From Actinomycetota bacterium (lineage in GTDB: Bacteria; Actinomycetota; Acidimicrobiia; Acidimicrobiales; AC-14), in assembly GCA_040754375.1 (NCBI GenBank), contig JBFMCT010000008.1, positions 1 through 64,000 of the forward strand: a stretch of 64,000 nt of DNA, written 5' to 3'. A model generated the notes under the pieces. It was not told the origin of the DNA. It did no database searches and worked only from the letters and a program-made list of their open reading frames with translations. Every line of letters begins with the position of its first letter. Positions within the stretch are counted from its first letter, which is position 1. The position numbers and the translations under genes were made by a program. Of the stretch, positions 6,406 to 26,510 are shown in pieces.

Positions 6406-6411
6406 CGTCAG
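6406..6411 (+). repeat. Target-site duplication, left copy (CGTCAG)
   Basis: CGTCAG directly precedes the left inverted repeat and recurs directly after the right inverted repeat at 26511-26516. A 6-bp duplication makes both inverted repeats start GGGTCA. Because the ends are G/C runs, 5 bp (the usual Tn3-family size) cannot be excluded. Confidence 0.8.
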
Positions 6412-6469
6412 GGGTCAGCTGAGTAACGGCGTCAAAGTGGCCAACAATTCGTCTACTAACCCGTGTTAG
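6412..6469 (+). repeat. Left terminal inverted repeat (IRL)
   Basis: Starts GGGTCAGCTGAGTAAC and ends GTTAG. It aligns to the reverse complement of 26453-26510 with 8 mismatches in 58. It is longer than the 38 bp typical of Tn3 elements. The inner part contains TCTACTAAC, related to a motif in the recombination site of this element. Confidence 0.92.
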
Positions 6470-6724: not shown

Positions 6725-7558
6725 TCACTCAGCTCTCACCCAGGAGTCGTCGGGCGGTCCGGCTATGAGCCGCTTGACCGCCGCCACCGAGGCGAGTAGC
6801 TCCTCATTCGAGAAGCTTGGAGGTTCGATGCGGCGCCAATGGTCAGTCGAGCGCGCGGGATCCCACGGGCAGGCCGAACGTACCCATTCGAGTCTGTTCG
6901 AGCACTGGCCGGTAGCTGGGTCTTTGCGGGAGTAGTGGAGAACTTGTCCGTTGTGGATCTTGTCGCGTGGGTCGTCCGAGAGAAGCAGTCCGCACCACTG
7001 CTCTTGGGTCATGCCTTCGATCAAGAAGCGCGCCGCCCACCTCACGTCCTCGTGCGTGGAGACGATGCAACTGCCGCCGGGGCAGTCTCGCCGCAGCGTG
7101 TTGAGGACACGCTCCACCCGCAAGCAGACCTCGGCCAACGACTCGCCCTCAGGCGGGCGCCAATAGCACGGGTCCTCCTTACGTTCGGAGAGCTCGGCGG
7201 AGAAGCGCTCGAAGCGCTCGCTCTCGGGCATCACGAAATCCGCACGTCCCCAGGATCGTTCGCGCAACAGGATGTCCTGCACCCAACGCGCTTTGGGCAG
7301 CCGTAGGTGCGCAGCGGTCTCCCTCGCCCGCAGGTACTCGGAGGTGTAATACCGCGAGAAGGTCGGCGAGACGTGTTCGCGAATCCAGTGTCCTGCGGCC
7401 TCGGCCTGCGCTATTCCGAGGTCGGTGAGCCGCCAGTCGCGGTTGAGGCGGGCGCGGAACTCCCCGGTATAGCAACTGTTGTCTCCTTGCTTGGACTGCT
7501 CGCGCGCTTCGTTTCCCTCACTTCGACCATGGCGGACCAACACAAGATCGACAGGCAT
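6725..7558 (-). CDS. Histidine phosphatase superfamily protein (phosphoglycerate mutase-like)
   Basis: 277 aa from ATG 7558, preceded by GAGG five bases upstream. The N-terminus VDLVLVRHGRSEGN carries the RHG motif, whose His is the phospho-acceptor of the superfamily. The second catalytic His is in IVSTHEDVR. The protein is longer than simple PGM-like phosphatases, with a charged C-terminal extension. The substrate cannot be told from sequence. It is the first cargo gene from the left end of the transposon, transcribed toward that end, and stands apart from its neighbours. A plain metabolic phosphatase role is the default. Confidence 0.8.
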   Translation of the reverse strand: MPVDLVLVRHGRSEGNEAREQSKQGDNSCYTGEFRARLNRDWRLTDLGIAQAEAAGHWIREHVSPTFSRYYTSEYLRARETAAHLRLPKARWVQDILLRERSWGRADFVMPESERFERFSAELSERKEDPCYWRPPEGESLAEVCLRVERVLNTLRRDCPGGSCIVSTHEDVRWAARFLIEGMTQEQWCGLLLSDDPRDKIHNGQVLHYSRKDPATGQCSNRLEWVRSACPWDPARSTDHWRRIEPPSFSNEELLASVAAVKRLIAGPPDDSWVRAE

Positions 7559-7960: not shown

Positions 7961-8400
7961 TCACGCCGGCGGGTCGGTTTGCTCCTGTGGTGCGACGAGC
8001 GACCCGGGGTGCCCCTGGCAACGCCCTGCTTCGGCTGGGTGCTCCGCCATCGAGGCTCGCCGTGCTGCAGGGTATCCCTGACCGGGCGGAACCGACGCCA
8101 GTGCCCGCGGGCTGCAGTTCCTGTCCAGGGTGATGGCGTCGCCGAGGCCAACCGCCACCAGCGCCTTCATACTCGTCTCGTTGGGATCGGCGAAGGTCAG
8201 CTCGCCGCCCAGCTGCGCAGCCGCATCGACCGCACCTACCAAGGCCTGAAGGCTGGAGCCATCGATCCCAGAGACGTCGTGCACGTCCAAGACCACCTTC
8301 AGGTTGCCCTGGCCTTCGATCAGATCGGCCAGCACGGCCTGGAGCGCGTCGGCGTCGGAGGCACCCAGGTGCCCGTGGCGGTCACCACAACTACGCCCAT
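7961..8400 (-). pseudogene. STAS-domain (anti-sigma-factor antagonist-like) gene, apparently frameshifted
   Basis: The downstream frame (from 8335) encodes a clear STAS-like segment: LKVVLDVHDVSGIDGSSLQA, then GGELTFADPNETSMKALVAV. The upstream strand of the fold (MGVVVVTATG, from ATG 8400) lies in another frame. One base indel near 8370-8380 would join them as ...VTATG-HLGASDADALQAVL, the usual STAS pattern. Either the gene is broken, the base call is wrong, or translation starts at GTG 8335 without the first strand. STAS proteins act in partner-switching control of sigma factors or in anion transporters. The C-terminal 50 residues are low complexity. Confidence 0.6.
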
Positions 8401-8718: not shown

Positions 8719-8749
8719 AGGCCTCACCGGCGCCCCGCCGGTGTGGCCT
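8719..8749 (-). terminator. Strong hairpin at the end of terC
   Basis: CACCGGCG (8725-8732) and CGCCGGTG (8736-8743) pair perfectly around a 3-base loop. After one T/T mismatch the stem continues with AGGCC/GGCCT. It overlaps the terC stop codon. There is no U-run, so it may be a stability or pause structure instead of an intrinsic terminator. Confidence 0.45.
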
Positions 8750-9848
8750 GAGAATCGGAGGCGGGTGCAGGGTCTCGGTCCGGTTCGACGTCGGATTCTG
8801 GGATGTGGGCGGGGTCGGAGGCGGGATGGCGCGCTGGCGGCACGATGCCGGCGTTGCGGTCGCGCTTGTCCGCGTGGAGCGACGCCATTACCGCTGCGGC
8901 GATGACGATGGTGATGACGCTGAGGGACACGTAGGTGGGCATGTGCAGCTCGAACGGCTTGCCGATGAGGAGCATCTTGACGCCGACGAAGGCGAGGATG
9001 ACGCCGAGGCCGACGTTGAGGTAGCGGAACTTGCCCTGCATTCCACCGAGGAGGAAGTAGAGCGAGCGCAGGCCGAGGATGGCGAAGGCGTTTGCGGCGA
9101 ACACGATGAACGGCTCGCGGCTGACGGCGAGGATGGCCGGCACCGAGTCGACGGCGAAGACGACATCGGTCGCTTCGATGAGGACGAGGACGGCGAACAG
9201 CGGCGTCGCCACACGTTTGCCGTTCTCGCGCGTGAAGAGCTTTTGGCCGTCGAAGCGGCTGGTGGTCGGGACGAGGCGCCGTACGAGGCGCATGGCGACG
9301 TTGTTGTTGTAGTCGACTTTCTTCGACTCATCGTGGCGGGCGATCTTGAGCGCGGTGTAGAGCAGGAAGGCGCCGAAGATGTAGAGGACCCAATCGAAGC
9401 GCTCGATGAGCGATACGCCGGCGAAGATGAAGATGCCTCGCAGGACGAGTGCCCCGAAGATTCCCCAGAACAGCACCCGGAACTGGTACTCGCGGCGCAC
9501 TGCGAAGAACGAGAAGATGACGGCCCACACGAACACGTTGTCGATGGAGAGGCTCTTCTCGATGAGGAAGCCGGCGAAGTACTCGCCGCCAGCTTGCCCG
9601 CCCTGCCACATCAGCAGGATCAGGCCGAACGCGAGGCCAAGGGAGATCCACACCGCAGACTCGATGGCCGCCTCTTTGATGCTGATGACGTGGGCCGTGC
9701 GGTGCACGAGCAGCAGGTCGGCAACGAGCATGATGACGATGGCGCTCACGAGGGCGAACCACGCCCAGGCGGGTACGTCGAAGCTGGCGAAGCTCTCGTT
9801 CACGCCGGGTGCGGCGGCCACGAGCGGGGCGGTGATGACGCTAAGCAT
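8724..9848 (-). CDS. TerC/Alx family integral membrane protein
   Basis: 374 aa with about nine hydrophobic segments and a charged Asp/Pro-rich C-terminal tail. TerC-family signatures are present: LSIDNVFVWAVIF in the first half and DVVFAVDSVPAILA in the second, each with the acidic membrane residues expected to bind metal ions. Bacterial Alx/MntX relatives export Mn2+ and respond to alkaline pH; TerC proteins were first named for tellurite resistance. The start ATG 9848 overlaps the stop of the upstream small membrane protein, which in turn overlaps the carbonic-anhydrase-like gene, so the three form a coupled operon. Inference: ion or pH balance linked to bicarbonate/CO2 interconversion. A stand-alone metal resistance gene is the alternative. 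Confidence 0.85.
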   Translation of the reverse strand: MLSVITAPLVAAAPGVNESFASFDVPAWAWFALVSAIVIMLVADLLLVHRTAHVISIKEAAIESAVWISLGLAFGLILLMWQGGQAGGEYFAGFLIEKSLSIDNVFVWAVIFSFFAVRREYQFRVLFWGIFGALVLRGIFIFAGVSLIERFDWVLYIFGAFLLYTALKIARHDESKKVDYNNNVAMRLVRRLVPTTSRFDGQKLFTRENGKRVATPLFAVLVLIEATDVVFAVDSVPAILAVSREPFIVFAANAFAILGLRSLYFLLGGMQGKFRYLNVGLGVILAFVGVKMLLIGKPFELHMPTYVSLSVITIVIAAAVMASLHADKRDRNAGIVPPARHPASDPAHIPESDVEPDRDPAPASDSQATPAGRR

Positions 9849-10179
9849 GAGGGCTCCTGCGATCAGCGGACGCGAGGGTTGCGATCCGCTCCGCGGTGGA
9901 CGGATCGGCGGGGCGGGGCGCGGGCGGAACTGACTTCTCGGCCCTGCAGGCGGTTGGCGTTGTAGGTCGAGGGCTGGGCGGTCCGCCAGCTCGCGGCCCG
10001 GCCGTCGTCGCTTCAGGATCTGACGTGGATCCGCCTCGGCCCCGCGCGTCGGTGCGGCCTCTGCGCTCCCGCAACGGGCGGTAGATGATCTCGCGCCGGG
10101 CCCAGGAGCGCAGCCAATAGGCGGCGATCAGGAGCGCGATGGCGCCGGCGGCCGGCAGCCATGCAGCGGTGCCGCTCAT
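9841..10179 (-). CDS. Small membrane protein of the carbonic anhydrase-TerC operon
   Basis: 112 aa. It has one N-terminal membrane helix (AAGAIALLIAAYWL), then RSWARRE and a long Arg/Pro/Thr-rich, probably disordered tail. No known family recognised. ATG 10179 overlaps the TGA of the carbonic-anhydrase-like gene (ATGA), and its own stop overlaps the terC start, so it is very likely translated with both. A regulatory or tethering role for TerC would be speculation. Confidence 0.65.
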   Translation of the reverse strand: MSGTAAWLPAAGAIALLIAAYWLRSWARREIIYRPLRERRGRTDARGRGGSTSDPEATTAGPRAGGPPSPRPTTPTACRAEKSVPPAPRPADPSTAERIATLASADRRSPHA

Positions 10180-10664
10180 CTGCTGCCCGCGAGCACCGCT
10201 GGGACGTCGCGACGAGAACCCGCGATGACGGTACGCGGGCCGTTGGGGTCCAAGCGCACGAGCTGGAGGCGGAGGGACGGGAACTGCTCTGCGACCACCT
10301 CTCCGGCGATGGCCAACGCGGTCTCGAGCGTGGCGATTTCGGCTTGGGGCCCGGCGAAACAGGCGGAGCCGCCGAGCCGGTCGCAGTCGTGGTGGGCGAC
10401 GAGCACGATCTCGGCCGGACTGTCCAGCTCGCAGGCCATGCGGATGGTGTCGATGATGGCGTCACGGTCGGGGGTGGCGAGCGCGGCGGCGCCACCGGGC
10501 CAGGCGATGAGGTCGACGGTGCCGGTGAGTCCGCGCCGGGCGAGGAAGCGGCGCATCGGTTCGACGAAGCGGTAGTCGCTGCAGGACAGAACCACCGCCT
10601 GGCACTGGGCGGCGGGGAGGGCGGAGTCCTCCATTCGGGCGCCAGGTCGGTGGGTTGGTTGCAT
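10176..10664 (-). CDS. Beta-carbonic-anhydrase-like protein
   Basis: 162 aa from ATG 10664; ATG 10634 would give 152 aa. The zinc-site motifs of beta-carbonic anhydrases are visible: CSDYRF (first Cys ligand plus the Asp-Arg dyad) and VAHHDCDRLGG (His and second Cys ligand). The spacing is shorter than in the classical 200-220 aa enzymes, so activity should be tested. Expected reaction: CO2 + H2O to bicarbonate + H+, in the cytoplasm. It heads an operon with a small membrane protein and TerC through ATGA overlaps. Its first codons and promoter lie in a 360-bp block repeated upstream of sbtA, which ties it to the bicarbonate transporter. Confidence 0.75.
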   Translation of the reverse strand: MQPTHRPGARMEDSALPAAQCQAVVLSCSDYRFVEPMRRFLARRGLTGTVDLIAWPGGAAALATPDRDAIIDTIRMACELDSPAEIVLVAHHDCDRLGGSACFAGPQAEIATLETALAIAGEVVAEQFPSLRLQLVRLDPNGPRTVIAGSRRDVPAVLAGSR

Positions 10665-10962
10665 GAAGCCAATACTGCGCTGCGAGGACCTCGAAGACAA
10701 TGCGCGCTCCCGGACCAGCAGTGGCCCTCTATACTTCCGAACATCGGAGTGCCGGGATCGTCTTCGACCTAGACTCGGGTTCGAGATGACCGCCCAGGGT
10801 GCGGAGGGGAGGTTGGGCGCCGCCCGACCTACCCGCTCCAGGATCGAATCGTTGGTGGCGCCATCGCGCGACGGTGCGATCGGCCGGATCGCGGCCAAGG
10901 CTGCTCGCGAGGCGGGCGTCGACCGTGCCTTGCTCGGCGGTTACCTGGAGGCAGTGCTCGAG
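10603..10962 (+). repeat. 360-bp direct repeat, copy 1 (carbonic anhydrase 5' end, divergent promoter, pucR 5' end)
   Basis: Nearly identical to 16491-16854 apart from scattered substitutions and a few one-base indels. It covers the first codons of the carbonic-anhydrase-like gene, the intergenic promoter region and about 59 codons of the PucR-type regulator. It ends at the palindrome CTCGAG (10957-10962), where the sequence switches to an inverted piece of the regulator's 3' end. Confidence 0.9.
10730..10748 (+). promoter_or_regulatory. -10 element plus palindromic operator, copy 1
   Basis: TATACT (10730-10735) is a near-consensus -10 for the plus strand. It is followed at once by the perfect palindrome TCCGA-ACA-TCGGA (10736-10748), where the transcript start should lie. 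Both are conserved in the second copy. Autoregulation by the PucR-type protein is inferred. Confidence 0.5.
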
Positions 10963-11425
10963 GACGAAGCGCCCTTCGGGGTCGTCGGCGGCGTGACCGG
11001 TGAGCTGGGCGATGCGCTCGAGCCGGTAGACGACGGCGCGGGGACTGAGATGGAGGCGGCGTGCGGTCCCCCGACGCGTAGCCGGACTCGGCGAAGTACG
11101 CGTCGAGCGTGGCGATCAACGGTTCGGGGCCGCCACGGGCGCCATCGAGAGGGCCGAGCACGGCTCGGACCATCTCGGTGACCGTGATCGGGTCGAGGGC
11201 GAGCACTCGGTAGGGCAGTACCGACTCGAACCGGATGATCGGCTCGGCGAGGCCCAGGCGGCGGGCTAGCTCCAGCGCCTCGCAGGCCTCGTTGTAGGAG
11301 CGGACCAGGCCGCCCGGACCGGCACAGGGGCGGCCCACGCCGACCTCACACTGAAGCGGCCTGGGTTTGAGGGTCCGGGCCGTGCTCGGCCCGCTCGATG
11401 GCGCCCGTGGCGGCCCCCGAACCGC
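10786..11425 (+). pseudogene. Scrambled copy of the PucR/CdaR-type regulator
   Basis: The N-terminal 59 codons (ATG 10786, MTAQGAEGRLGAARPTRSR) run forward to CTCGAG at 10957-10962. From there to about 11347 the sequence is the reverse complement of the regulator's 3' region (matching 17461-17847 of the intact copy). It still carries the GVGRPCAGPGGLVRS-like and DAYFAESG segments on the minus strand. At about 11373-11425 a short forward piece (matching about 17636-17690) follows. The middle of the gene is missing. The switch point at CTCGAG occurs in the intact gene at both 16849-16854 and 17842-17847, so recombination between these short inverted sites explains the structure. No functional product is possible. 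Confidence 0.85.
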
Positions 11426-11579
11426 ATCCCTTCATCGCGCCGAATCGGCTGCCGGAACGCCCCCGCGCCGACTTCGAACTGCGCCGCCACGAAAGTGGCT
11501 GATCCACTCCTGATCACGGAAGCTGCAGCGCCTCTGAGTCGTCCGGTGTCTGCCGTTGTTTCCGGGACACCGCAGCCCC

Positions 11580-11732
11580 ATGATGGGTGCCATGACTCCT
11601 GTGACGACGCCGACACCCGGCTCGCCGGCCCCGCAGACCGCCGGCCGCACCGCCCACCGCGCCTTGCGGCAGACCTCGCCGGCGCCGAGCACCCCGCCCA
11701 CCGTGGTCCACACCCCCAGGAGCATCCCATGA
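11580..11732 (+). CDS. Possible 50-aa leader ORF overlapping the greA-like gene
   Basis: Starts ATG 11580 and is Thr/Pro/Ala-rich. Its TGA overlaps the ATG of the next gene (ATGA at 11729-11732). No family or strong ribosome site. It is listed because several cargo genes here are preceded by a small ORF ending in the same 4-bp overlap. Confidence 0.35.
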   Translation: MMGAMTPVTTPTPGSPAPQTAGRTAHRALRQTSPAPSTPPTVVHTPRSIP

Positions 11733-12220
11733 CAGTCGCCATTCCCCACACCGCTGGCGAGGTCCGCCTCACCCGTCAGGGTCGCCGCCACCTGGGCGCC
11801 CGCGCCCGGAACCTGCGAGACGAGATCATCCCCCGCCTGATCGAGCTGCGCGACGGCTCCGACCGCGACGACTCGGTCGTGGCCGACTACCAGAGGGCCA
11901 CTGCCGAGTTGGCTCGGATCTGCACGGTTCTCGCCACCGCTCGCCCCGTCGAGGCGCTCGCAGATTACCCCGACGTGGTCGAGCTCGGCGAAGCCGTCAC
12001 CATCCGCGTCGTTGGTGCGCCCCCCGAGCGCTACGTCATCGTCGACTCCTCCGAAGCGATCGTCGGCGCCGGACGGGCGTCGGCGCTCTCCCCGTTGGGC
12101 CGGGCGCTGCTGGGTCGCCGCGTCGGTGACGAGGTCGAAGTCGCCGCCCCTGGCGGCACCTACCGATGTGTCATCGAGAGCGCCACCAGAACCGAGACCG
12201 CCCGGCCACCAAGCCCCTAA
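11729..12220 (+). CDS. GreA/Rnk-like transcription elongation factor-domain protein
   Basis: 163 aa from ATG 11729, with AGGAG six bases upstream. The N-terminal half has the helical pattern of a GreA coiled coil (LTRQGRRHLGARARNLRDEI). The C-terminal half matches the FKBP-like GreA/GreB domain: VELGEAVTIRVVG, SALSPLGRALLGRRVGDEV and PGGTYRCVIE. GreA-family proteins bind the secondary channel of RNA polymerase and stimulate transcript cleavage, or modulate initiation. The coiled-coil tip acidic residues are not obviously conserved, so cleavage activity is uncertain. Its position beside a broken baeRF gene suggests a general stress or growth-arrest role for this part of the cargo (inference). 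Confidence 0.75.
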   Translation: MTVAIPHTAGEVRLTRQGRRHLGARARNLRDEIIPRLIELRDGSDRDDSVVADYQRATAELARICTVLATARPVEALADYPDVVELGEAVTIRVVGAPPERYVIVDSSEAIVGAGRASALSPLGRALLGRRVGDEVEVAAPGGTYRCVIESATRTETARPPSP

Positions 12221-12222
12221 CC

Positions 12223-12366
12223 ATGACTGCTTCCGCGCCGAACAAATCCGACCCGCACACGACGGGGGCGGCCCCCCGCCGGTGCACGAAGGACCACGCT
12301 GCGATGCCGTCGACCGCCGCCCCGACCGGCCCGTCGAGCCCCACCAACCCCGAGGCCACCCCGTGA
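12223..12366 (+). CDS. Small 47-aa ORF before the decayed baeRF gene
   Basis: ATG 12223 lies two bases after the greA-like stop, and its own TGA (12364-12366) overlaps a GTG that opens the baeRF remnant. Thr/Pro/Ala-rich, no family. It occupies the same position relative to baeRF as the 48-aa ORF at 18564. Confidence 0.4.
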   Translation: MTASAPNKSDPHTTGAAPRRCTKDHAAMPSTAAPTGPSSPTNPEATP

Positions 12367-12741
12367 GCGCTCGACTGGCACATCCCGCCACGCAGGACCT
12401 CCGCCGGGACGCGTCACCCCACCCGCTGCCCGCACCGTCCGTCGCCCCAACTCGTCCCGCGATCGCCGAGGTCCTGCTTCGGGTGGTCACCCCGGCCGAC
12501 CTGGCCCGCCTGCCATACCTGAGCGGCTACCCATGGTTTCGGTCCTCCTGCCGACCACACCAGGGGCGCGACTCGATCCCGAGGACCGGGGTAACCTCGC
12601 AGACCTTGTCGAACGGACACAACGGCGGCTCGCCGCCGCGCTGCCCGGCGCCCCATCGACGAGCTCATCGGACCGCTCCGGCGCCTCGCGGCCCTGGTCA
12701 TCGACTCCTACCGGCTCCTCTGGTTTACCGGACGTTCCTAG
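12363..12741 (+). pseudogene. Decayed and truncated baeRF (release-factor-like) gene
   Basis: Starting at GTG 12363 the peptide runs ...LLRVVTPADLARLPYLSGYP. After a frame change near 12530 it continues VSVLLPTTPGARLDPEDRG, and after another near 12650 IDELIGPLRRLAALVID, then stops at 12741. In order, these pieces resemble the N-terminus of the intact protein at 18707 (NVARIQQVRGYPAISILMS, DRARLARLVEIATARLL, LLDELVGLAADAEV). Two frameshifts plus loss of about 270 residues make it non-functional. It is a more distant paralogue than the promoter duplication, so it may be an older copy. Confidence 0.65.
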
Positions 12742-13004
12742 ATTGGCACGACACCGGGTCGACCCCCGGCGGGATCGCGCTCGCTACCGCTCACCATCGT
12801 GCAGCCCCACCACTGGAACGGATCACGACCGAGGACCGCAACGGCGCCCTCGGCCACTTCGACGGGGTTGGGTCGCCCTGGCACTCCGCGCGCCGATCCC
12901 ACCGAAGCCTGGTAGCTGCGGCGAGCATGGGAGCCGTGGCACACGGGAAACGATCGGCGGAATCACCCGGGGGTACCGGTATGAACCGAAGGGGTCTCCC
13001 CACG

Positions 13005-13151
13005 ATGGCCAAGATCAAGGTGTTCGGTGCCGCCGCCGACCTGCCCGTGATCAGTGGGGTGTTCACCATCGCCGAAGTGACCGCATGCGGATCGACCCGG
13101 GCCATTGTGGTCTCCAAGACCTTCGTGAGCAGTCCAGAGCCCCTCGGGTGA
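13005..13151 (+). CDS. Small 48-aa protein coupled to purK
   Basis: MAKIKVFGAAADLPVISG... from ATG 13005; ATG 12981 would add 8 residues. AAGGGG lies about ten bases upstream. The stop TGA (13149-13151) overlaps GTG 13148, a possible purK start, so the two may be translationally coupled. No family recognised. The composition looks more protein-like than other small frames nearby. Confidence 0.45.
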   Translation: MAKIKVFGAAADLPVISGVFTIAEVTACGSTRAIVVSKTFVSSPEPLG

Positions 13152-14323
13152 TCCCGGCAACCGTTCCGACCGTCACCCGCGAAGGTCCGGTGTCGGCTCG
13201 CGTCGGCATGGTGGGCGGGGGCCAGCTCGCCCGGATGACGCACCAGGCCGCCGTCGACCTCGGCATCTTTCTGGAGGTCCTGGCCCCGTCGGCGACCGAG
13301 CCAGCGGTGATGGCGGGAGCGCACCACCTGCGCGGCCCCCACGACTCGCTCCAGATGCTGCGCACCCTCGCCGAGCGGTGCGAGGTCGTCACGCTGGACC
13401 ACGAGCACGTCCCCACCGAGCACCTGCACACGCTGCAGGCGGCCGGGTACACACTGCGGCCCCGCGCCGAAGTAGTCGGGCTCGCCCAGGACAAGCTCCT
13501 GGCCCGCCGTACCCTCGAGCACCTCGGGTTCCGGGTGCCGCCCCATGCCCCCGCCGATCCCGGCGACACCGACGCGGTGGCCGCCTTCGCGGAGCGCTGG
13601 GGTTGGCCGGTGGTGGTGAAGTCCCGCCGCGGCGGGTACGACGGCCGCGGGGTGCACCTCGTCGAGGACCTCACCACCGCCCGGGCCGTGCTCCGCACCG
13701 ATACCCCCGGAGGCTGGCTGATCGAAGCCAACGTCGCCATGGTCACCGAGCTCGCTGTCCTCGTCGCCCGCAACCCCTCGGGCTTCACCGCCGTCTACCC
13801 GGTAGTGGAGACCCGCCAGGTCGATGGCATGTGCCGCGAGCTCGTCATGCCGGCCGCGATACCCCACTCTGTCGCTGACGCGGCGTCGCGCCTCGCGAAG
13901 TCGATCGCCGACGGCATCGACGCCACCGGCATCCTCGCCGTCGAGCTGTTCCTCACCCGCGAAGGCGACCTCGTCGTCAACGAGCTCGCCGCACGCCCCC
14001 ACAATTCCGGGCACGCCACCATCGAGGCGACGGTCACCTCCCAGTTCCACAACCACCTGCGAGGGATCCTCGACTGGCCTCTTGGATCCACCGCCATGGT
14101 CGCACCCGCGGCCGCGACCGTGAACGTCATCGGCAACACCGCCGGGACCGACCCGCTCCAGAACCTGCCCGCAGCCCTCGCCGTCCCTGGAGCCAACGTG
14201 CATCTCTACGCCAAAGCCCCCATCCCCGGGCGAAAGCTCGGCCACGTCACCGCCGTGGGCTCCGACCCCGACGAGGCCCTCGGCACCGCCCGAGCCGCCG
14301 CGGTGATCCTCGCCGAACCATGA
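13148..14323 (+). CDS. purK: N5-carboxyaminoimidazole ribonucleotide synthase
   Basis: 391 aa if started at GTG 13148 (overlapping the upstream stop), or 377 aa from GTG 13190 behind GAAGG; the latter is closer to usual PurK length. ATP-grasp architecture: [12 protein letters not shown] at the N-terminus, [14 protein letters not shown] for the ATP-binding loop, and [16 protein letters not shown] plus [14 protein letters not shown] in the C-terminal part. Reaction: AIR + ATP + bicarbonate to N5-CAIR in de novo purine synthesis. The stop overlaps the purE start (ATGA). Being cargo of a transposon that also carries bicarbonate transport genes is unusual; it may be a second genomic copy. Confidence 0.92.
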
Positions 14324-14829
14324 CCGGCATCGCACCCCTCGTCGGCATCGTCATGGGCAGCGCCTCGGACCTCGACACCATGGCGGCGGCATCCGACGTG
14401 CTCGACGGGCTTGGCCTCCCCAACGAGGTGCGGATCCTCTCGGCGCACCGCACTCCCTGGGACCTGCTCGACTACGGGACCACCGCCGCCGATCGGGGCC
14501 TACGGGTCCTCATCGGCGCGGCTGGAGGCGCCGCCCATCTGCCCGGCATGCTCGCCGCGGTCACCACCTTGCCGGTCATCGGCGTCCCCGTCCCGTCCCG
14601 GTACCTCGCCGGCCTCGACTCGCTCCTGTCGATCGTGCAGATGCCCACCGGCATACCCGTCGCCACCGTCGCCATCGGCGGCGCCGCCAACGCCGCCCTC
14701 CTCGCCGCCCGGATCATCGGAATCTCCGACCCTGCCATCTGCGCCGCCGTCCGAGCCCACCAGGCCGACATGGCCGATGCCTCACGGGACTCCGACGCCC
14801 ACCTCTATGGCGGGGCCACACCCTGCTGA
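14320..14829 (+). CDS. purE: N5-CAIR mutase (class I PurE)
   Basis: 169 aa. Class I PurE motifs are visible: [34 protein letters not shown] and [17 protein letters not shown]. Some positions differ from the common forms (for example SAHRTPWDL), but the substrate loop residues are kept. It converts N5-CAIR to CAIR directly after PurK. ATG 14320 overlaps the purK stop by 4 bp, so the pair is coupled. The next gene is on the opposite strand. Confidence 0.92.
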
Positions 14830-14959
14830 ACGGCAAGCGCGTCCTTATCGCCGGGGGAGGTTCGCCCCGGGGTCCTGCTGAAGTGAGGCGGCGCTTTTGG
14901 CCGTCGGACCCGGTCGAGAGGCCGAAGGTCGGCATACCGGCCGGTAGATCGTCCCGCAG

Positions 14960-15274
14960 CTACCCGGGAACGGCCGGCTTGCGCGGCATGATCGCAATGT
15001 CCGACACGAGCGCCTTCAAGCGGTGGCCTACGCTCATCAGAGCGTCGAGGTCCTCGAGAACTTTCAGCAGGCGTGATTCGGACATGATGATGTAGATCAC
15101 GACGTTCGAATCGCTGTTGAGCATTCCCGAGCGCAACCCCGACTCGCCAGCGCCCGTGGCGGGCACGATCGTGTAGCCGCCTACGCCACGGTGGCGTGCC
15201 GTCTTCACGACCAGGGCCTGCAGCTCACTCGGGGCGATGACCATCAGCAGTTTCTTGTGCTCAAGGGGTCTCAT
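14960..15274 (-). CDS. sbtB: SbtB-like PII signalling protein
   Basis: 104 aa from ATG 15274 with GGAGG eight bases upstream. PII fold pattern: LLMVIAPSELQALVV for strand 1 and helix 1, HRGVGGYTIVPATGAGE leading into the T-loop, and VVIYIIMSESRLLKVLEDL in the second half. It lies directly downstream of sbtA on the same strand, the arrangement known for cyanobacterial and other sbtA-sbtB pairs. There SbtB binds adenyl nucleotides (cAMP, AMP, ADP, ATP) and gates the transporter. It lacks a C-terminal Cys pair seen in some SbtB proteins. A GlnB/GlnK role is less likely from length and context. Confidence 0.82.
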   Translation of the reverse strand: MRPLEHKKLLMVIAPSELQALVVKTARHRGVGGYTIVPATGAGESGLRSGMLNSDSNVVIYIIMSESRLLKVLEDLDALMSVGHRLKALVSDIAIMPRKPAVPG

Positions 15275-15410
15275 GTTCACGGCCTCCGGCGGGTCGATGC
15301 AGTAGGGGTGCGCCATTCTGTCGTAACCCGTTCTTCATCCGCCGCTGGTGCCCGGAGGGTAGGCGGCAACGAGACTGAGATGACCCGTGGATGCGCGACA
15401 CCATCAATGT

Positions 15411-16448
15411 TCACCACGCGAGACCGCTCATCCAGAAGTACAGCGGGATGCCGACGAGAATGTTGAAGGGGAACGTCACCGCGAGAGCCATCGTGAAGTA
15501 CACGCCCGGCTGAGCCTCCGGAATCGCATAGCGGACTATGGCCGGTACCACTATGTAGGACGCGCTTGAAGCCAGCACCGCGACCAGCACGGCATCGCCC
15601 TGGCTCAGCCCAAGGAGCCGGCCGAGCCCCAGAGCGAGACTGGCGTTGACCACCGGCATTACGCCAGCGAACCCGATCAGGAAGCGCCCCACGAGCGCTT
15701 GCGACTCGAGCAGCTGGCGCGCGACCAGCAGACCCAGTTCGAGCAAGAAGAACGCGAGGATGCCCTTGAAGATGTCAGCCGTGAACGGCTGCATCATCTC
15801 CTTCCCCCGCTCGCCGGTGACGAAGCCGATGAGCAGGCTGCCGATCAGCAGGAGGTGGGCGCCGTCCGTGAAGGCTTCGTGCAACACTCTCTTCATGGAC
15901 AGCGAGGACGGCCGCGGTGGATCCTCAAGCTCCGGACCTGCGTTGACAGCTGCCGCACCGTGGGCAACCGCCTGCTGGGCCTGCCGGTTTCGCGCGAGTG
16001 TGGCGAGCAGCACCGCCATGACGATCGCTGGCGATTCCATCAGTACCAACGCCACCGCCATGTAGCCGCCGAACTCGATCTCGTTCCGACCGAGGAACTG
16101 CTGGGCGGTGATGAACGTCACGGCACTAACGGAGCCATAGGTGGCAGCGATGGCGGCCGCGTTGAAGGGGTCGCAACGGCGGAGGCGCAGGATCACGAAG
16201 CTGTAGCACGGGACCACGCAGGCCATCAGCATCGCTGCGAGCAGAGCCAGCGCTCCCGTCGCTGGGAGCCCGCCGATAGCCAGCTCGGCGCCGCCCTTGA
16301 GGCCCAGGGCGACTAGGAGGTAGAGCGAGAAGAACTTCGCGAGAGCCGGCGGGATCTCCAGATTGGAGCGGACTGCACCGATCAACACCCCGAGGACAAA
16401 GAACAGGATCGCCGGATCAAGCAGACCCTGGACGAGCTGGGTAGGCAT
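15411..16448 (-). CDS. sbtA: SbtA-family sodium-dependent bicarbonate transporter
   Basis: 345 aa, about ten membrane helices in two halves (Pfam Sbt_1 pattern). Recognisable segments: YGSVSAVTFITAQQFLGR and VLMESPAIVMAVLLATLA in the first half, and ASSASYIVVPAIVRYAIPEA in the second. The hydrophilic linker (PELEDPPRPSSLSMKRVL) sits where SbtA has its cytoplasmic loop. ATG 16448 has GGAG seven bases upstream. Family members import bicarbonate with Na+ at high affinity. Upstream lies the repeated promoter block and a chimeric leader ORF that stops 3 bases before this start. sbtB follows 136 nt downstream. Confidence 0.88.
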   Translation of the reverse strand: MPTQLVQGLLDPAILFFVLGVLIGAVRSNLEIPPALAKFFSLYLLVALGLKGGAELAIGGLPATGALALLAAMLMACVVPCYSFVILRLRRCDPFNAAAIAATYGSVSAVTFITAQQFLGRNEIEFGGYMAVALVLMESPAIVMAVLLATLARNRQAQQAVAHGAAAVNAGPELEDPPRPSSLSMKRVLHEAFTDGAHLLLIGSLLIGFVTGERGKEMMQPFTADIFKGILAFFLLELGLLVARQLLESQALVGRFLIGFAGVMPVVNASLALGLGRLLGLSQGDAVLVAVLASSASYIVVPAIVRYAIPEAQPGVYFTMALAVTFPFNILVGIPLYFWMSGLAW

Positions 16449-16451
16449 AGG

Positions 16452-16553
16452 CTAACTCCAGTCCGTCCCGCTCGACTGCGGTCGAACTGTCACTGGGCGG
16501 CGGGGAGGGTGGAGTCTCTCCATTCGGGCGCCAGGTCGGTGGGTTGGTTGCAT
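16452..16553 (-). CDS. 33-aa chimeric leader ORF before sbtA
   Basis: It begins with the same codons as the carbonic-anhydrase-like gene (MQPTHRPGARME), then leaves that frame by a one-base indel. TAG at 16452-16454 is 3 bases upstream of the sbtA ATG and in the same frame. It is a by-product of the promoter-block duplication and could couple translation into sbtA. Confidence 0.5.
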   Translation of the reverse strand: MQPTHRPGARMERLHPPRRPVTVRPQSSGTDWS

Positions 16554-16590
16554 GAAGCCAATACTCCGCTGCCGAGGACCTCGAAGACAA
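16552..16590 (-). promoter_or_regulatory. Candidate promoter firing toward sbtA (also in copy 1 toward carbonic anhydrase)
   Basis: On the minus strand TTGTCT (16590-16585) is followed 18 bases later by GAGTAT, then the leader ORF start. Copy 1 has TTGTCT with CAGTAT at 17-bp spacing. The match to sigma-70-type consensus is moderate. Confidence 0.35.
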
Positions 16591-16619
16591 TGAGCGCTCC
16601 CGGACCAGAATTGGCCCTC

Positions 16620-16638
16620 TATACTTCCGAACATCGGA
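16620..16638 (+). promoter_or_regulatory. -10 element plus palindromic operator, copy 2
   Basis: TATACT (16620-16625) followed directly by TCCGA-ACA-TCGGA (16626-16638), identical to copy 1 at 10730-10748. The regulator ATG is 40 bases further on. Its position over the expected transcript start suggests repression or autoregulation. Confidence 0.5.
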
Positions 16639-16677
16639 GTGCGGGGATCCGTCTCCGGGCCTAGACTCGGGTTCGAG

Positions 16678-17886
16678 ATGACCGCCCAGGCTGCGGACGG
16701 GAGGTTGGGTGCCGCCCGACCTACCCGCTCCAGGATCGAATCATTGGTGGCGCCATCGCGCGACGGTGCGATCGGGTTGATCGCGGCTAAGGCTGCTCGC
16801 GAGGCGGGCGTCGACCGTGCCTTCCTCGGCGGTTACCTGGAGGCAGTGCTCGAGGCCGCTGTTCTCGGACGCCGGTTGGGCCGGACCGATCTGGACGCCT
16901 GCCGCCAGATGGGAGAGTCCGCGGCCGACCAGGGGATCGCTCTCTCCGCGTTGCTCGACCTGTACTTGAGCGCGCTGTGGCGGCTGTGGGACGACATCAC
17001 CGGGCGAGCCGGCCGCGCCGACGCGGCGCTGGTGGCGGCGGTGGCCGGCGCGTTGTTCCGTACGGCCGATGACGCCGCCGAGGCCCTGGCCGAGGGGCAT
17101 GAGAGGGCGCAGCGCCAGAGCGTGCGTCGCGAGGAGACGATGCGGCGAGAATTTGTCGACGACCTGCTCAGCGGCGGCGGCGACCCGGACCTGGTGGGGG
17201 AGTGGGCCGCCCGCTTTGGCTTCAACCTGGCCGGCACGCACCTGGTGACCGTGGCCCGCACCCGCACCCATCGAGTCCTCGTCGACGCCGGCCCGGTACA
17301 CGCCCGAGTCGAGACCCACGTGCTGGTGAGCTTCGGTGGGCGCGACGTGGTGGTGGCCACCAGGGACGGCGCCCTCGTCTGCGTGCTCCCGGCCACCGCA
17401 ACCGACCCGGCCGCAGACTTGGCTCGCACCCTGCACGAGAGCGACGAGGGGCCCTGGCAGGTCGGCGTGGGCCGCCCCTATGCAGGTCCGGGCGGCCTGG
17501 TGCGCTCCTACAACGAGGCATGCGAGGCGCTGGAGCTGGCCCGCCGCCTGGGCCTGGCCGAGCCGATCGTCCGGTTCGAGTCGCTACTGCCCTACCGGGT
17601 GCTCGCCCTCGACCCGATCACCGTCGCCGAGATAGTCCACGCCGTGCTCGGCCCCCTCGATGGCGCCCGTGGCGGTCCCGAACCGTTGATCGCCACGCTC
17701 GACGCATACTTCGCCGAGTCCGGCAACGCGTCGGGGACCGCACGCCGCCTCCATCTCAGCCCCCGCGCCGTCGTCTACCGGCTCGAGCGCATCGCCCAGC
17801 TCACCGGTCACGCCGCCGACGACCCCGAAGGGCGCTTCGTCCTCGAGCTGGCCGTACGAGCGAGACGGATGATCAGCGACACCTGA
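16678..17886 (+). CDS. PucR/CdaR-type transcriptional regulator
   Basis: 402 aa from ATG 16678; GTG 16639 would extend it, but it lies inside the palindrome. The N-terminal half is helical, the middle resembles the GGDEF-like domain of CdaR regulators, and the C-terminus holds the PucR-type helix-turn-helix: LDAYFAESGNASGTARRLHL, then SPRAVVYRLERI. It is divergent from sbtA, with a shared promoter region containing a palindrome. A scrambled second copy lies divergent from the carbonic anhydrase operon in the same promoter context. The natural inference is that this protein now controls both promoters. The inducer is unknown (CO2, bicarbonate or a purine precursor are candidates). Confidence 0.82.
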   Translation: MTAQAADGRLGAARPTRSRIESLVAPSRDGAIGLIAAKAAREAGVDRAFLGGYLEAVLEAAVLGRRLGRTDLDACRQMGESAADQGIALSALLDLYLSALWRLWDDITGRAGRADAALVAAVAGALFRTADDAAEALAEGHERAQRQSVRREETMRREFVDDLLSGGGDPDLVGEWAARFGFNLAGTHLVTVARTRTHRVLVDAGPVHARVETHVLVSFGGRDVVVATRDGALVCVLPATATDPAADLARTLHESDEGPWQVGVGRPYAGPGGLVRSYNEACEALELARRLGLAEPIVRFESLLPYRVLALDPITVAEIVHAVLGPLDGARGGPEPLIATLDAYFAESGNASGTARRLHLSPRAVVYRLERIAQLTGHAADDPEGRFVLELAVRARRMISDT

Positions 17887-18108: not shown

Positions 18109-18237
18109 ATGCTCATAGCAACCGCGGCATTCGTCGCCTGCGCTGCCGGGCTCCTCGCCGCCGAATCCGCCCGACTGGCCCGGGTCGCCCGACTCTCGCT
18201 GGCGCCCCTCGTCGTGCGCACAAGGCGGCAGCGATGA
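18109..18237 (+). CDS. Small 42-aa single-helix membrane peptide
   Basis: ATG 18109 behind GAGGAAGG. One hydrophobic helix (ATAAFVACAAGLLAA) and a basic tail VRTRRQR. Its TGA overlaps the ATG of the zinc-finger gene (ATGA at 18234-18237). No family recognised. It is the first gene of a four-gene operon ending in baeRF. Confidence 0.6.
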   Translation: MLIATAAFVACAAGLLAAESARLARVARLSLAPLVVRTRRQR

Positions 18238-18515
18238 ACTGCCCAACGGACGGCACCACCCTCGTGCTCGCCGAACGCACCGGCATCGAGATCGACCACT
18301 GTCCGGTATGCCGGGGGGTGTGGCTTGACCGGGGCGAGCTCGACAAGCTGATCGACCGAGCTGCCGGCCTCGACACCGCCGGACCCGGTCGGGTCCGACG
18401 GCGTGACCACCACGATGATGACGATGACGACGACCGCTCTCAGTCTGACGGAAGCAGCCCATCCAAACGCAAGCGCAAGTCGTTCCTTGGCGACCTCTTC
18501 GAGTTCGGCGGCTGA
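18234..18515 (+). CDS. zf-TFIIB zinc-ribbon protein
   Basis: 93 aa. The N-terminus MNCPTDGTTLV and CPVCRGVWLDRGELDKLI form the zf-TFIIB (PF13453-like) zinc ribbon, with CP-x-D...CPVC ligands and the WLDRGEL signature. The C-terminal half is acidic (Asp run near residues 60-67), then basic KRKRK. These small proteins are widespread in bacteria and of unknown function. It is coupled by ATGA to the upstream membrane peptide. Confidence 0.8.
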   Translation: MNCPTDGTTLVLAERTGIEIDHCPVCRGVWLDRGELDKLIDRAAGLDTAGPGRVRRRDHHDDDDDDDRSQSDGSSPSKRKRKSFLGDLFEFGG

Positions 18516-18563: not shown

Positions 18564-18710
18564 ATGACCATCCGCCACTGCCCGAGCCGCGACCTGTGCT
18601 TCGCGACCGGCTCCGAGCGAGATGACCACGTGGCTACCGACCACGAGACGCTACGGCAAGGCCCCGAACGGGCCGAGGCCGTCCCCGCCGGTGCGGTGGC
18701 CGCGCGATGA
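18564..18710 (+). CDS. Small 48-aa protein coupled to baeRF
   Basis: ATG 18564 with a strong AAGGAG about 8 bases upstream, so it is very probably translated. Sequence begins MTIRHCPSRDLCFATG (two Cys). The TGA overlaps the baeRF start (ATGA at 18707-18710). No family recognised. Confidence 0.6.
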   Translation: MTIRHCPSRDLCFATGSERDDHVATDHETLRQGPERAEAVPAGAVAAR

Positions 18711-19882
18711 CTGCTGCGACGACCCCTCGAGTTATCACCGCCATGGCAAGCGCCGGCGAGGACGCCGCCGTCACCCACCTGGCGCTGAACACCGCGAACG
18801 TGGCTCGCATCCAGCAGGTCCGCGGCTACCCGGCGATCTCGATCCTCATGTCCAGCGGACCGACCAGCGTTGGTGACCGGGCGCGGCTGGCCCGACTGGT
18901 CGAGATCGCCACAGCCCGGCTGCTGAACGAATTCTCCCGCCCAGCGGTACAGCCGCTCCTCGATGAGCTGGTGGGCCTGGCCGCCGACGCCGAAGTCGGG
19001 CCCGGTCGCCAAGGCATCGCCCTGTTCGCAAGCGCCGACCTTGTCGCCACCGTCGGGTTGCCGGTGGTCGTGCGCGAACGCACCGTCGTGGACGAGACCT
19101 TTGCCACCCGCGACCTAGTGCACGCCCTGCTCCGCAGTCCCCACTACCGGGTCCTCGTCCTCGCGAACGTGGCCCGCCTGTACGAAGGCGTCGGGGCCGA
19201 CCTGACCGAGATTGTGGACGGTGGATTCCCTTTTCGAGGCGACGAGACCTTTGCCGAGCCGGCCCGTTTCGGGGTCGACCGCTCGGACACCCGCGACGCC
19301 GGCCTACGCCGGCACCTCCGCGCCGTCGACACCGCCCTCGCCGGTCACCTCGATTCGGATCAGCCGCTGCTCGTAGTGGGCGCCAGTCGACGGCTGTCAC
19401 TGTTCCGGCAGCACTCCCGCCACCGCTCCCAAATCACAGAAGCACTCCCCGGCAACTTCGAGCAGCGCTCGGCCACGGAGCTCGCGCAAGCGATCTGGCC
19501 ATCGGTCACCAACATGTTCGACCGCCGCCACCAGGATGCCCTCGCCGAACTGGACCGGGCCGTCGGGGAACGCCGGTACGCTTTCGGCGTCCAGCAGGCC
19601 TGGACCCTGGCGAATCAAGGCAGCGGCGCGCTCATCGTCGTGGAAGAGAACTACGTCTACCCCGCCAGGATCGACCCCCACAGCAACGGCCTCGTCGCCG
19701 CCGCCGACGTAGCGCACCCCGAGGTCGTCGATGACGTCGTGGATGAGATTATCGAGATCGTCCTGGCCAAAGGAGGACGTGCCACCATCGTTCCCGACGG
19801 CACCCTCGCCACCAGGGGTCAAATCGCGATGGCCCTGCGGTATGGGGCGGAAGCGGCACCCGCCCGAGCGGGCCCGGTCTGA
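18707..19882 (+). CDS. Bacterial archaeo-eukaryotic release factor-like protein (baeRF superfamily)
   Basis: 391 aa. It has the three-domain plan of baeRF proteins: YPAISILMSSGPTS near the N-terminus, a middle region with HYRVLVLANVARLYEGVG, and a C-terminal eL30-like domain with ALIVVEENYVYPARID and GGRATIVPDGTLATRGQIA. The family is related to aeRF1; members such as Balon bind the ribosomal A site during hibernation, and others act in ribosome rescue. No GGQ motif is seen, which argues against peptide release. Last gene of an operon with a membrane peptide, a zf-TFIIB protein and a 48-aa ORF. The subfamily (possibly baeRF family 3) is my recollection of patterns and was not searched. Confidence 0.75.
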   Translation: MTAATTPRVITAMASAGEDAAVTHLALNTANVARIQQVRGYPAISILMSSGPTSVGDRARLARLVEIATARLLNEFSRPAVQPLLDELVGLAADAEVGPGRQGIALFASADLVATVGLPVVVRERTVVDETFATRDLVHALLRSPHYRVLVLANVARLYEGVGADLTEIVDGGFPFRGDETFAEPARFGVDRSDTRDAGLRRHLRAVDTALAGHLDSDQPLLVVGASRRLSLFRQHSRHRSQITEALPGNFEQRSATELAQAIWPSVTNMFDRRHQDALAELDRAVGERRYAFGVQQAWTLANQGSGALIVVEENYVYPARIDPHSNGLVAAADVAHPEVVDDVVDEIIEIVLAKGGRATIVPDGTLATRGQIAMALRYGAEAAPARAGPV

Positions 19883-19990: not shown

Positions 19991-20938
19991 ATGGCCGCTC
20001 GGGCGGGGAAGGCGGCACTGCGAGAGGCGGAGGGTGTCGAGGCCGAGGCGGCGCTGGCCACCTACGCCGGCTGGTTGAAGCGCCAGCCGCTGGCGACTCG
20101 ATCACGTGAGGCATACCTGGCCCAGGTCCGAGCTTTCCTCAACTGGCTCGCCGGCTCCGAGCACGGGCCCCAGGCCCTGGTCGACCCTCATGTGCGCGAC
20201 TGGGCGGTGCGGGACTACAAGCGCCACGTCAAGACGACCAAGCGCTGGGCGCCGGCGTCGGTGAACCAGGCTCTGGCCGCCATCGACAACTTCTACCGCT
20301 CGCTGGCCGCCGGCCGGCCGGAGGTCCTTCGCGAAGAGCTGGCCCAGGTGGCGCCCCGCTCCCTGGAGGAGGCCGACCAGCGGCGGTTCCTGCGCATCGT
20401 GGAGGCCAGCCCGTCGCCTCGGGACCGGGCCATGGTCACGGTCTTCTTCTACGCCGGCCTGCGCCTGTCGGAGTTGTCCGCCCTCGACATCGCTGACGTC
20501 GAGATGTCGGCCCGCCGTGGTCGCCTCAAGGTCCGCACCGGCAAGGGCGACGCCTACCGCGAGGTCCCCCTCAACAGCTCCACCCGCAAGGCCCTGGAGG
20601 AGTGGTTCGAGGCAAGGACCGACCAGCTGTCAGCCGTCGCCGACGCTGACGGAGGCGACGCCGAGGAGACGGCGCTGTGGCTGTCGCGCACCGGCAAGCC
20701 CATGAGCAGCCGGGCCGTCGACATGGTCGTGCGCCGCCTGGCCGCCGAGGCCAAGCTGGAGCTGTCGGCCCACGTCCTGCGCCACACCTTCGTCACCAAC
20801 CTGATCCGCTCCGGTGCCGACGTGGTGCTGGTGGCAGAGCTCGCCGGCCACCGCCGCCTGGACACCACCCGGCGCTACAGCCTGCCCTCACAGGCCGACA
20901 AGGACGCGGCCGTCGAAGCCGTTCTGGTCGAGATCTGA
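19991..20938 (+). CDS. tnpI: Tyrosine recombinase, cointegrate resolvase of the transposon (TnpI type)
   Basis: 315 aa, preceded by GGGAGAGG. SAM-like N-terminal domain (TYAGWLKRQPLATRSREAYL), then the catalytic domain with all residues visible: Arg in YAGLRLSELSAL, Lys in RTGKGDAYREV, His-x-x-Arg in HVLRHTF, His in LAGHRRLDTT and the Tyr nucleophile in RRYSLPS. It sits directly upstream of tnpA on the same strand and just downstream of an inverted-repeat site, as expected for resolution of Tn3-family cointegrates. XerC/D-type chromosomal function is excluded by position. Confidence 0.88.
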   Translation: MAARAGKAALREAEGVEAEAALATYAGWLKRQPLATRSREAYLAQVRAFLNWLAGSEHGPQALVDPHVRDWAVRDYKRHVKTTKRWAPASVNQALAAIDNFYRSLAAGRPEVLREELAQVAPRSLEEADQRRFLRIVEASPSPRDRAMVTVFFYAGLRLSELSALDIADVEMSARRGRLKVRTGKGDAYREVPLNSSTRKALEEWFEARTDQLSAVADADGGDAEETALWLSRTGKPMSSRAVDMVVRRLAAEAKLELSAHVLRHTFVTNLIRSGADVVLVAELAGHRRLDTTRRYSLPSQADKDAAVEAVLVEI

Positions 20939-20952
20939 GGGGATCGGCGACC

Positions 20953-23943: not shown

Positions 23944-24329
23944 CGACCTTCATCGCCATGACCATCGAGCGACTGGCCGCCCATGTGGCCGACGAGGCCG
24001 ACGCCGACCGCCGCTGGTCCCTGCTGCTCGAGTTCATGGAGGAGTACGAGCACGAACCAGCGACCGGTCGCCCATCCCTCGTCGAGGTGGAGCCCGGGGG
24101 GACCAACGATGCACACTGGGACGCGCTCCTGGCCGGCATCGCCGAGTGGCTCGCGGCTCGCGACGGCTTTCCCGCACCGCCCTGGGTGGGAACGCCTGAA
24201 CGCACGCTCAGCGACCCGTGGAGCCCGCACGAGCTCGCCTCACTGCGACGTCTGGCTGCCGACCATGTGCCCCCGGAGATCCGCCGGCACGGGGTGCTGC
24301 TCGACCCCTACGACCTGGCCCGGGCGTGA
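23940..24329 (+). CDS. Putative antitoxin-like partner of the nucleotidyltransferase
   Basis: 129 aa. ATG 23940 overlaps the tnpA stop and its TGA overlaps the GTG start of the nucleotidyltransferase (GTGA). Acidic N-terminus (IERLAAHVADEADADRRW), Trp-rich middle, and a C-terminus EIRRHGVLLDPYDLARA that resembles small proteins paired with DUF6036 nucleotidyltransferases. No DNA-binding motif is clear. Toxin-antitoxin pairs fused to tnpA transcription are known in Tn3 elements, where they are thought to help maintenance. Function here is by analogy. Confidence 0.55.
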   Translation: MTTFIAMTIERLAAHVADEADADRRWSLLLEFMEEYEHEPATGRPSLVEVEPGGTNDAHWDALLAGIAEWLAARDGFPAPPWVGTPERTLSDPWSPHELASLRRLAADHVPPEIRRHGVLLDPYDLARA

Positions 24330-24727
24330 ACGGTCCGCTTCTCAGCCGACGCCAGCTCAATGCCGCACTCGAACGTCTGGCCCATCACCTCCAGCGCCGG
24401 GGAGTTCATGGCGAGCTCTACGTCTTCGGCGGCGGGGCCATGGTCCTGGCCCACAGCGCCCGGGAGGCCACCATGGACCTGGACACGGCCATCAGGCGAC
24501 ATCACGGACCCGTCCTGGCCGAGGCCCGGACCGTTGCCGAGGAGCTCGGTCTTCCGTACTGGTGGCTCAACGAACAGGCGACCTCCTACCTGCCCGCCGG
24601 GCAGGACGTCCAGGCCACCGTGGTGCTGGAGCGCCCCGGCCTCACGGTTCCCCTGTCTGTCAGGCTGACGTGAGACACCTGCTGCACCTGACCATCCCTA
24701 CAGGGCGAGACAGGAACACCTAGACCG

Positions 24728-26169: not shown

Positions 26170-26452
26170 GAAGTTGTCTCACGGGGCTTGACACGTACCG
26201 TTCTCGCGGCGTCCCCGCGCCACCTGTTGGCGCTGAAGATCAGGGCCGCCCGCCCGAGCGACGTCGCGGACATAGTCGTCCTCGCCCGTCTCGTCCGAGC
26301 GACCAGTGCCGGGGAGGCCGAGCGCATCGCGACGGAGGTCTTCGGAGGCGAGCCCGTCAGTGAACGAAGTCGAGCTGTCCTGGCCGATCTCGACGACGTT
26401 CTGCGCGAGTCCTGAGTTGATTGCCGACCGCCAATCTGGGCCGAGCGTGCGC

Positions 26453-26510
26453 CTAACGCGAGTTAGTGGATGAATTGTTGGCCACTTTGGCACGGTTACT
26501 CAGATGACCC
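26453..26510 (-). repeat. Right terminal inverted repeat (IRR)
   Basis: Reverse complement starts GGGTCATCTGAGTAAC. 50 of 58 positions match the left repeat. It contains GTTAGTGGAT (26462-26471), the exact inverted form of the accessory motif ATCCACTAAC in the recombination site. Confidence 0.92.

Follow-up and report, generated by a model that had tools for sequence, protein, structure and literature searches.

Transposons of the Tn3 family usually carry resistance, degradation or toxin-antitoxin genes as passengers. The described system closest by function to the one reported here is Sbt-CS of Thiomicrospira pelophila, in which, according to the accessible part of PMC12628692, SbtA-family proteins, one of them coded beside carboxysome genes, rescue an anhydrase-minus Escherichia coli. 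SbtA and PurK are treated separately in the accessible part of PMC10880623, and the terms SbtA, "bicarbonate transporter" and PurK co-occur, as terms only, in PMC10880623 and PMC3610870. In the literature searched, with bioRxiv preprints and most subscription journals lying outside it, no paper was found for "Tn3 family transposon" together with "bicarbonate transporter", or for TerC together with SbtA and bicarbonate; the transposon type and the gene families are known, and their combination and its vehicle were not found there. We analysed a 64,000-nucleotide stretch of an Actinomycetota genome (G000:C8:1-64000, hereafter the window; host genome of 3.5 Mb in 105 contigs, 97.5% complete) and describe a Tn3-family transposon that carries genes for SbtA with a PII partner, for PurK and PurE, and for a carbonic-anhydrase-like protein in an operon with TerC. 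Our preferred reading, held with somewhat more belief than doubt, is that the central cargo of this element improves inorganic-carbon supply at low CO2 and serves both the carboxysome and purine synthesis.

Structure of the transposon and its carbon-related genes

The transposon spans window positions 6411-26511. It is delimited by terminal inverted repeats of 59 nucleotides at 6411-6469 (plus strand) and 26453-26511 (minus strand), which are 86% complementary to each other. A 5-bp target duplication, GTCAG, flanks both ends and follows the right repeat directly, with one base common to the duplication and the left G run. Because removal of the element with one copy of the duplication leaves a single open frame of 2081 codons, the insertion into the repeat-rich host gene is clean. 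This interrupted gene (window 950-6469 and 26512-27300) is built of repeats of about 336 nucleotides and looks surface-adhesin-like by eye. The transposase TnpA (20941-23943, plus strand) scores 772.6 bits with the NCBIfam profile NF033527 (cut-off 500) and is preceded by the tyrosine recombinase of the element (19991-20938, plus strand; PF00589, 114 bits). The element thus shows the TnpA profile, the terminal inverted repeats and the 5-bp duplication of the Tn3 family, and a tyrosine recombinase in addition. A relative in another genome (G041) has a TnpA that is 81% identical, in pieces, with an in-frame stop present. It ends in related repeats on either side and has a GATAG duplication of its own, with one base in common with the repeat (L154:5953 to L155:2980), which supports the ends assigned to the window element. 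A BLAST comparison of this relative with the window cargo found nothing in common beyond the recombinase, TnpA and the ends; by eye, it carries GAF, STAS and other signalling-like genes. A binning artefact was rejected because the element lies inside one contig and within one host gene, and because tetranucleotide use is alike in the host flank, the carboxysome contig and the purine contig (r 0.91 each to the flank).

The SbtA-family sodium/bicarbonate transporter (15411-16448, minus strand) matches PF05982 (Sbt_1) with 360.5 bits, above the cut-off, and aligns with Slr1512 (7cye) over residues 4-340. It is the single copy in the host genome. A PII protein is encoded in the SbtB position (14960-15316, minus strand; PF00543, 36.1 bits, cut-off 25), adjoining sbtA on the same strand. 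SbtA matches occur in 15 of the 298 genomes of the order sample, the host included; the nine other members of the host family have none. In a scan of named genomes, for which the best 80 of 564 SbtA relatives were kept, the nearest relatives are proteobacterial, at no more than 69% identity. A tree of 106 SbtA-like proteins nests the window SbtA with L053, L054, L055 and two Elioraea proteins (six rows, support 100/91) and puts L052 next (98/92), with the other actinobacterial SbtAs apart. The window PII is 46-69% identical to the PII proteins encoded beside nine related SbtAs, these nine being the loci among the best 80 in which a PII gene was matched at E 1e-5; inspection by eye showed PII-like genes of greater divergence in other loci. 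Carboxysome genes are present in the available DNA of 4 of the 9 PII-linked loci versus 0 of the 71 others (Fisher p 8e-5, to be taken as a guide only, since the loci are related and unequal in length), and the three closest PII-linked contigs span only 4-7 kb. Two of the four carboxysome-linked loci, L061 and L077, contain several cso genes; L070 and L059 contain only a bacterial microcompartment (BMC) fragment, of 84 and 26 residues respectively, where the contig ends. Judged by sequence, the window SbtA and PII are of proteobacterial, partly carboxysome-linked kinship.

Two plus-strand genes encode the bicarbonate-using N5-carboxyaminoimidazole ribonucleotide (N5-CAIR) synthase PurK (13148-14323; TIGR01161, 356.8 bits, cut-off 318.4), which matches solved PurKs over the full length, and the N5-CAIR mutase PurE (14320-14829; TIGR01162, 197.1 bits; AIRC, 198.7 bits), which is closer to class I structures than to class II. 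PurK is above the cut-off in one of ten family genomes, namely in the host through the transposon copy, which is also the only PurK match of the host at E 0.001. In the order sample, 125 of 298 genomes have PurK at E 1e-40 and 108 have it above the cut-off. The host has a chromosomal purE as well (contig C16), whose product likewise resembles class I structures more than class II; a third AIRC match, on C51, is weak and contains an in-frame stop. The accessible part of PMC3261824 describes PurK as using bicarbonate and ties the absence of purK in archaea to CO2-rich habitats, and cyanobacterial purK mutants require high CO2 according to the accessible part of PMC10880623. Of 27 further actinobacterial SbtA loci, 3 have the purE and purK genes next to sbtA, where about 0.02 would be expected if 2500 genes per genome are assumed. 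These are L041 (purK-purE-sbtA with overlapping frames), L038 (divergent) and L189 (sbtA-purK-purE), with L038 and L041 belonging to a single family. The 27 loci comprise 14 from the order and 13 from the phylum sample; the host was excluded, as were weak matches in G073, G413, G494 and G613, and G215 is counted twice. A FabI-like gene, named by eye, adjoins sbtA in four of the 27 (L039, L042, L047, L187).

Three minus-strand frames overlap in one further operon: the carbonic-anhydrase-like gene (10176-10664), a small open reading frame without a Pfam family that overlaps both neighbours (9841-10179), and a gene for a TerC/Alx family membrane protein (8724-9848; TIGR03718, 402 bits; Pfam TerC, 176.4 bits). 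The zinc and dyad motif of beta-carbonic anhydrases is CxDxR ... HxxC. The window protein, which matches Pro_CA_2 (PF20393) with 33.6 bits (cut-off 30), has CxDYR and HxDC motifs, in the forms CSDYR and HHDC common to two Azospirillum relatives. Only PF20393 was found in it, the classical Pro_CA (PF00484) giving no match at E 0.1. Its single-sequence model is poor (predicted local distance difference test score, pLDDT, 55.7) and matched no structure at E 0.001 or better, with beta-carbonic anhydrase chains among the weak matches. The family was found in one of 100 genomes of the phylum, that of the host; a weak anhydrase match in G066 was set aside for lack of the motifs.

A stretch of about 370 bp, made up of the sbtA-pucR intergenic region and the 5' part of pucR (16487-16858), is repeated before the carbonic-anhydrase-like gene (10599-10966) at 93-98% identity per block, and the left copy extends into the first 20 or so codons of the carbonic-anhydrase-like frame. 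The only intact copy of the PucR-type regulator (16639-17886, plus strand) has HTH_30 and GGDEF_2 Pfam domains above the cut-off; the left copy of pucR, whose 5' part lies within the repeat, is cut short, with pucR pieces in inverted orientation after it.

An original prediction, made from the sequence alone, had placed an inorganic-carbon module on a Tn3-family element at 10176-17886. The carbon cargo does lie there, on an element that reaches further, and the gene families, TnpA, the ends and the duplication agree with the proposal, as do the profile scores of SbtA and PII, the overlapping frames, in line with a carbonic-anhydrase-like gene co-operonic with TerC, and the scores of PurK and PurE. 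Purine carboxylation, suggested there as one use of bicarbonate, gains from the recurrence of purEK beside sbtA. A PucR regulator with duplicated promoters had also been claimed: the upstream DNA is indeed duplicated, the second pucR is broken, and since promoter scans showed no sigma-70-like promoter in either copy, the "duplicated promoters" are to be understood as duplicated upstream DNA.

Carbon metabolism of the host and the proposed role of the cargo

The host had been taken for a probable heterotroph, which we reject because its genome contains RuBisCO and alpha-carboxysome genes. The RuBisCO large subunit (contig C6, E 6e-139) is encoded beside CsoS2, CsoSCA, a BMC shell protein, a pterin-dehydratase-like gene, a LysR regulator, a class I aldolase, a phosphoribulokinase/uridine-kinase-family protein, a DabB-like protein and DabA. 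The host therefore has the gene set of a carboxysome-based CO2-concentrating mechanism: RuBisCO, CsoS2, CsoSCA, shell protein and a dissolved inorganic carbon (DIC) uptake system. We call its RuBisCO form I, judging from the carboxysome-gene neighbourhood and from the 91% identity of its large subunit to that of an Elioraea carboxysome locus. In that locus (L061:2072-8432) the BMC protein is 93% identical to that of the host, and the two identities hint that the carboxysome itself was passed between phyla. Another RuBisCO-like match, partial and apart from the carboxysome genes (C27; L037:9840-10889, 349 residues, PF00016, 92 bits) is perhaps of form IV type. A search of the host genome for PF00484 anhydrases found none. 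With RuBisCO, a phosphoribulokinase-family gene, DabA and carboxysome genes all present, most of the bicarbonate would obviously go to CO2 fixation.

In our preferred reading, SbtA would import bicarbonate, its presumed substrate, together with sodium, and would probably be gated by the PII partner. The imported bicarbonate would feed the host's own alpha-carboxysome and also the ATP-driven PurK step of purine synthesis, so that the cell could carboxylate aminoimidazole ribonucleotide from bicarbonate where a working carboxysome keeps the cytosol poor in CO2. PucR is probably the regulator of sbtA and, via the copied control region, of the operon of the carbonic-anhydrase-like gene and TerC. 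The host would presumably benefit from such cargo.

Several observations weigh against this reading. The carbonic-anhydrase-like gene fits poorly on a control region shared with sbtA, as a free cytosolic anhydrase, if the protein is one, should undercut the carboxysome; the accessible part of PMC10880623 regards a cytosolic anhydrase beside a carboxysome as a risk to the bicarbonate pool. Among the four residues of Slr1512 to which bicarbonate was docked (taken from the accessible part of PMC8352866), Ser114 and Ser324 are kept in the window SbtA and Tyr140 and Ser327 are changed. A search of solved chains with the window PII gave TTHA0516 as the best match (E 6e-7) and SbtB chains only weakly (E 0.13-0.14). 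An SbtA-like protein of Labrenzia showed no activity in E. coli according to the accessible part of PMC4275256; like the T. pelophila proteins, whose rescue of E. coli favours our reading, it may belong to another clade than the window SbtA. The host already has DabA. Ten genomes of the order sample have carboxysomes, of which only the host has SbtA and four lack PurK at E 1e-40; it follows that neither protein is needed in those genomes, and we rejected PurK as a general need of such hosts on the same count. About half of the cargo is without a clear carbon link, and only one such element was found, its closest relative carrying other cargo.

Other explanations of the cargo

The most serious rival, although we consider it unlikely, is that the cargo makes up a stress island, be the stress alkaline, sodium-related or general, in which SbtA would maintain pH or bicarbonate balance together with TerC/Alx, a hibernation-type factor and the GreA-like protein, the carboxysome being incidental. 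TerC lies near SbtA in 7 of the 80 named loci, 4 of them also with a zinc-ribbon gene, and in 3 of the 11 viewed plasmid records: Arthrobacter sp. U41, pSDM007 (about 7 kb apart) and Aureimonas (overlapping genes). These 11 were viewed out of 16 records of SbtA-bearing plasmids, with H2, H3, H5, H6 and H8 left out. On pSDM007 (L228:12870-27715) an SbtA island with NhaR, RaiA, TerC, DUF6671 and PyrC stands beside Tn3 tnpC-tnpA, and on an Arthrobacter plasmid NhaA and a calcium/sodium antiporter are near SbtA. Moreover, many SbtA-bearing genomes of the named scan belong to genera that we take to be heterotrophs. The stress-island explanation is opposed by the grouping of the window SbtA and PII with carboxysome-linked pairs rather than with the TerC-linked Burkholderiales set, by the purEK linkage, which points to bicarbonate use, and by the carboxysome gene set of a host that fixes CO2. 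On a Cereibacter plasmid, SbtA adjoins RuBisCO genes. Three Burkholderiales-type loci (L107:2214-3489, L090, L131) have TerC in the vicinity and a zinc-ribbon gene that immediately precedes sbtA in the same orientation. DUF6671 proteins are encoded beside or near SbtA at L057:7405-8262, L223:4787-5662 and L228:14848-15702, with a like cluster in 16 of the 80 loci.

We find it improbable that the cargo is a loose pile of passenger genes with no joint function. Read from left to right, the cargo consists of the genes for a histidine phosphatase and a STAS protein, the TerC/small frame/Pro_CA_2 operon, the broken pucR, a GreA-C protein gene, purK-purE, the PII gene with sbtA, the intact pucR, and genes for a zinc-ribbon protein and a baeRF family 3 protein. 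No carbon role is evident for the histidine phosphatase family protein (6725-7558, minus strand; PF00300, 89.3 bits), the short STAS-domain protein (7961-8335, minus strand; PF01740, 32.8 bits), the GreA/GreB C-terminal-domain protein (11729-12220, plus strand; PF01272, 58.4 bits, below the NCBIfam greA cut-offs) or the zinc-ribbon (TFIIB-type) protein (18234-18515, plus strand; PF13453, 62.8 bits). These genes, the unrelated cargo of the G041 element and the broken gene pieces, which attest to repeated rearrangement, are what a passenger pile would contain. Such a pile accounts less well for the SbtA-PII, SbtA-PurEK and SbtA-TerC neighbourhoods that recur in other genomes and for the same control DNA before sbtA and the carbonic-anhydrase-like gene. 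The baeRF family 3 protein (18707-19882, plus strand; PF18845, 112 bits; NF052287, 258.6 bits, below the cut-off of 330) is kin to a ribosome-hibernation family, and a degenerate stretch before purK (12506-12750) resembles the start of its gene by eye. To the right of TnpA lie nested insertion-sequence genes with an rve integrase core (24728-26169, plus strand; PF00665, 76 bits at 25159-26169; PF01527 below the cut-off at 24728-25162). By eye, this insertion sequence seems to split a small nucleotidyltransferase-like gene (24326-24673 and 26190-26414); a profile search of 24326-24673 gave no Pfam match.

Least probable of all, and in our judgement very improbable, is that the SbtA-like protein transports an anion other than bicarbonate and the carbonic-anhydrase-like protein lacks anhydrase activity: the two changed docking residues, the inactive Labrenzia protein, the absent PF00484 match and the poor model speak for it, and are outweighed in our view by Ser108, Ser297 and Tyr298, invariant in the 106 aligned proteins in which the two changed docking sites vary, by the carboxysome-linked relatives and by the CxDYR and HxDC motifs that are kept.

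Comparison with known mobile and carboxysome-linked systems

If our reading of a carbon-supply cargo is true, part of a CO2-concentrating mechanism travels across phyla as transposon cargo, and such mechanisms can be built stepwise by mobile elements. Two gene links are raised, that of SbtA with PurEK, which would provide bicarbonate for purines, and that of SbtA with TerC. A wider proposal, which we put forward only tentatively, is that Tn3-family elements gather SbtA-PII, TerC, a factor of the ribosome-hibernation type and a copy of an enzyme of nucleotide synthesis, and carry them from phylum to phylum; here, such an element might have upgraded a carboxysome-bearing actinobacterium with a pump of proteobacterial kin and its only PurK. 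Pseudomonas hygromyciniae pSDM007 resembles the window element in having SbtA, a weak PII match, TerC, RaiA (ribosome hibernation), PyrC (nucleotide synthesis) and Tn3 tnpC-tnpA. It differs in that its SbtA is only 41% identical to that of the window and that no PurEK or carbonic anhydrase was matched at E 1e-4; a terminal repeat pair was looked for around its island and none was found. The original prediction had called a mobile bicarbonate-supply island undescribed, which holds for a transposon within the literature searched, whereas public records contain SbtA on plasmids, once beside Tn3 tnpA.

The window element shares TnpA, terminal repeats, the 5-bp duplication and the recombinase with Tn3-family transposons that have a tyrosine recombinase, and differs from them in its cargo, that of the G041 element being different again. 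As in the DIC toolkits of autotrophs (PMC10880623), SbtA, DAB and a carboxysome occur together in one genome, that of the host; the accessible part of that text does not use the words "horizontal" or "transpos". Compared with the carboxysome-linked SbtA-PII pairs of Proteobacteria, the window locus has PucR where LysR-type genes are the rule near SbtA, and it additionally contains the PurEK and carbonic-anhydrase-like genes. The carboxysome-linked SbtA-PII pairs of Elioraea (L061, L059) and Hydrogenophaga (L077, L070) have SbtA proteins 52-61% and PII proteins 52-69% identical to those of the window. In these pairs, too, the PII gene directly follows sbtA, and carboxysome genes lie within the available locus DNA or at its edge. 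The Elioraea and Hydrogenophaga pairs adjoin their carboxysome genes, whereas the window pair resides on a transposon and the carboxysome of its host is encoded on another contig.

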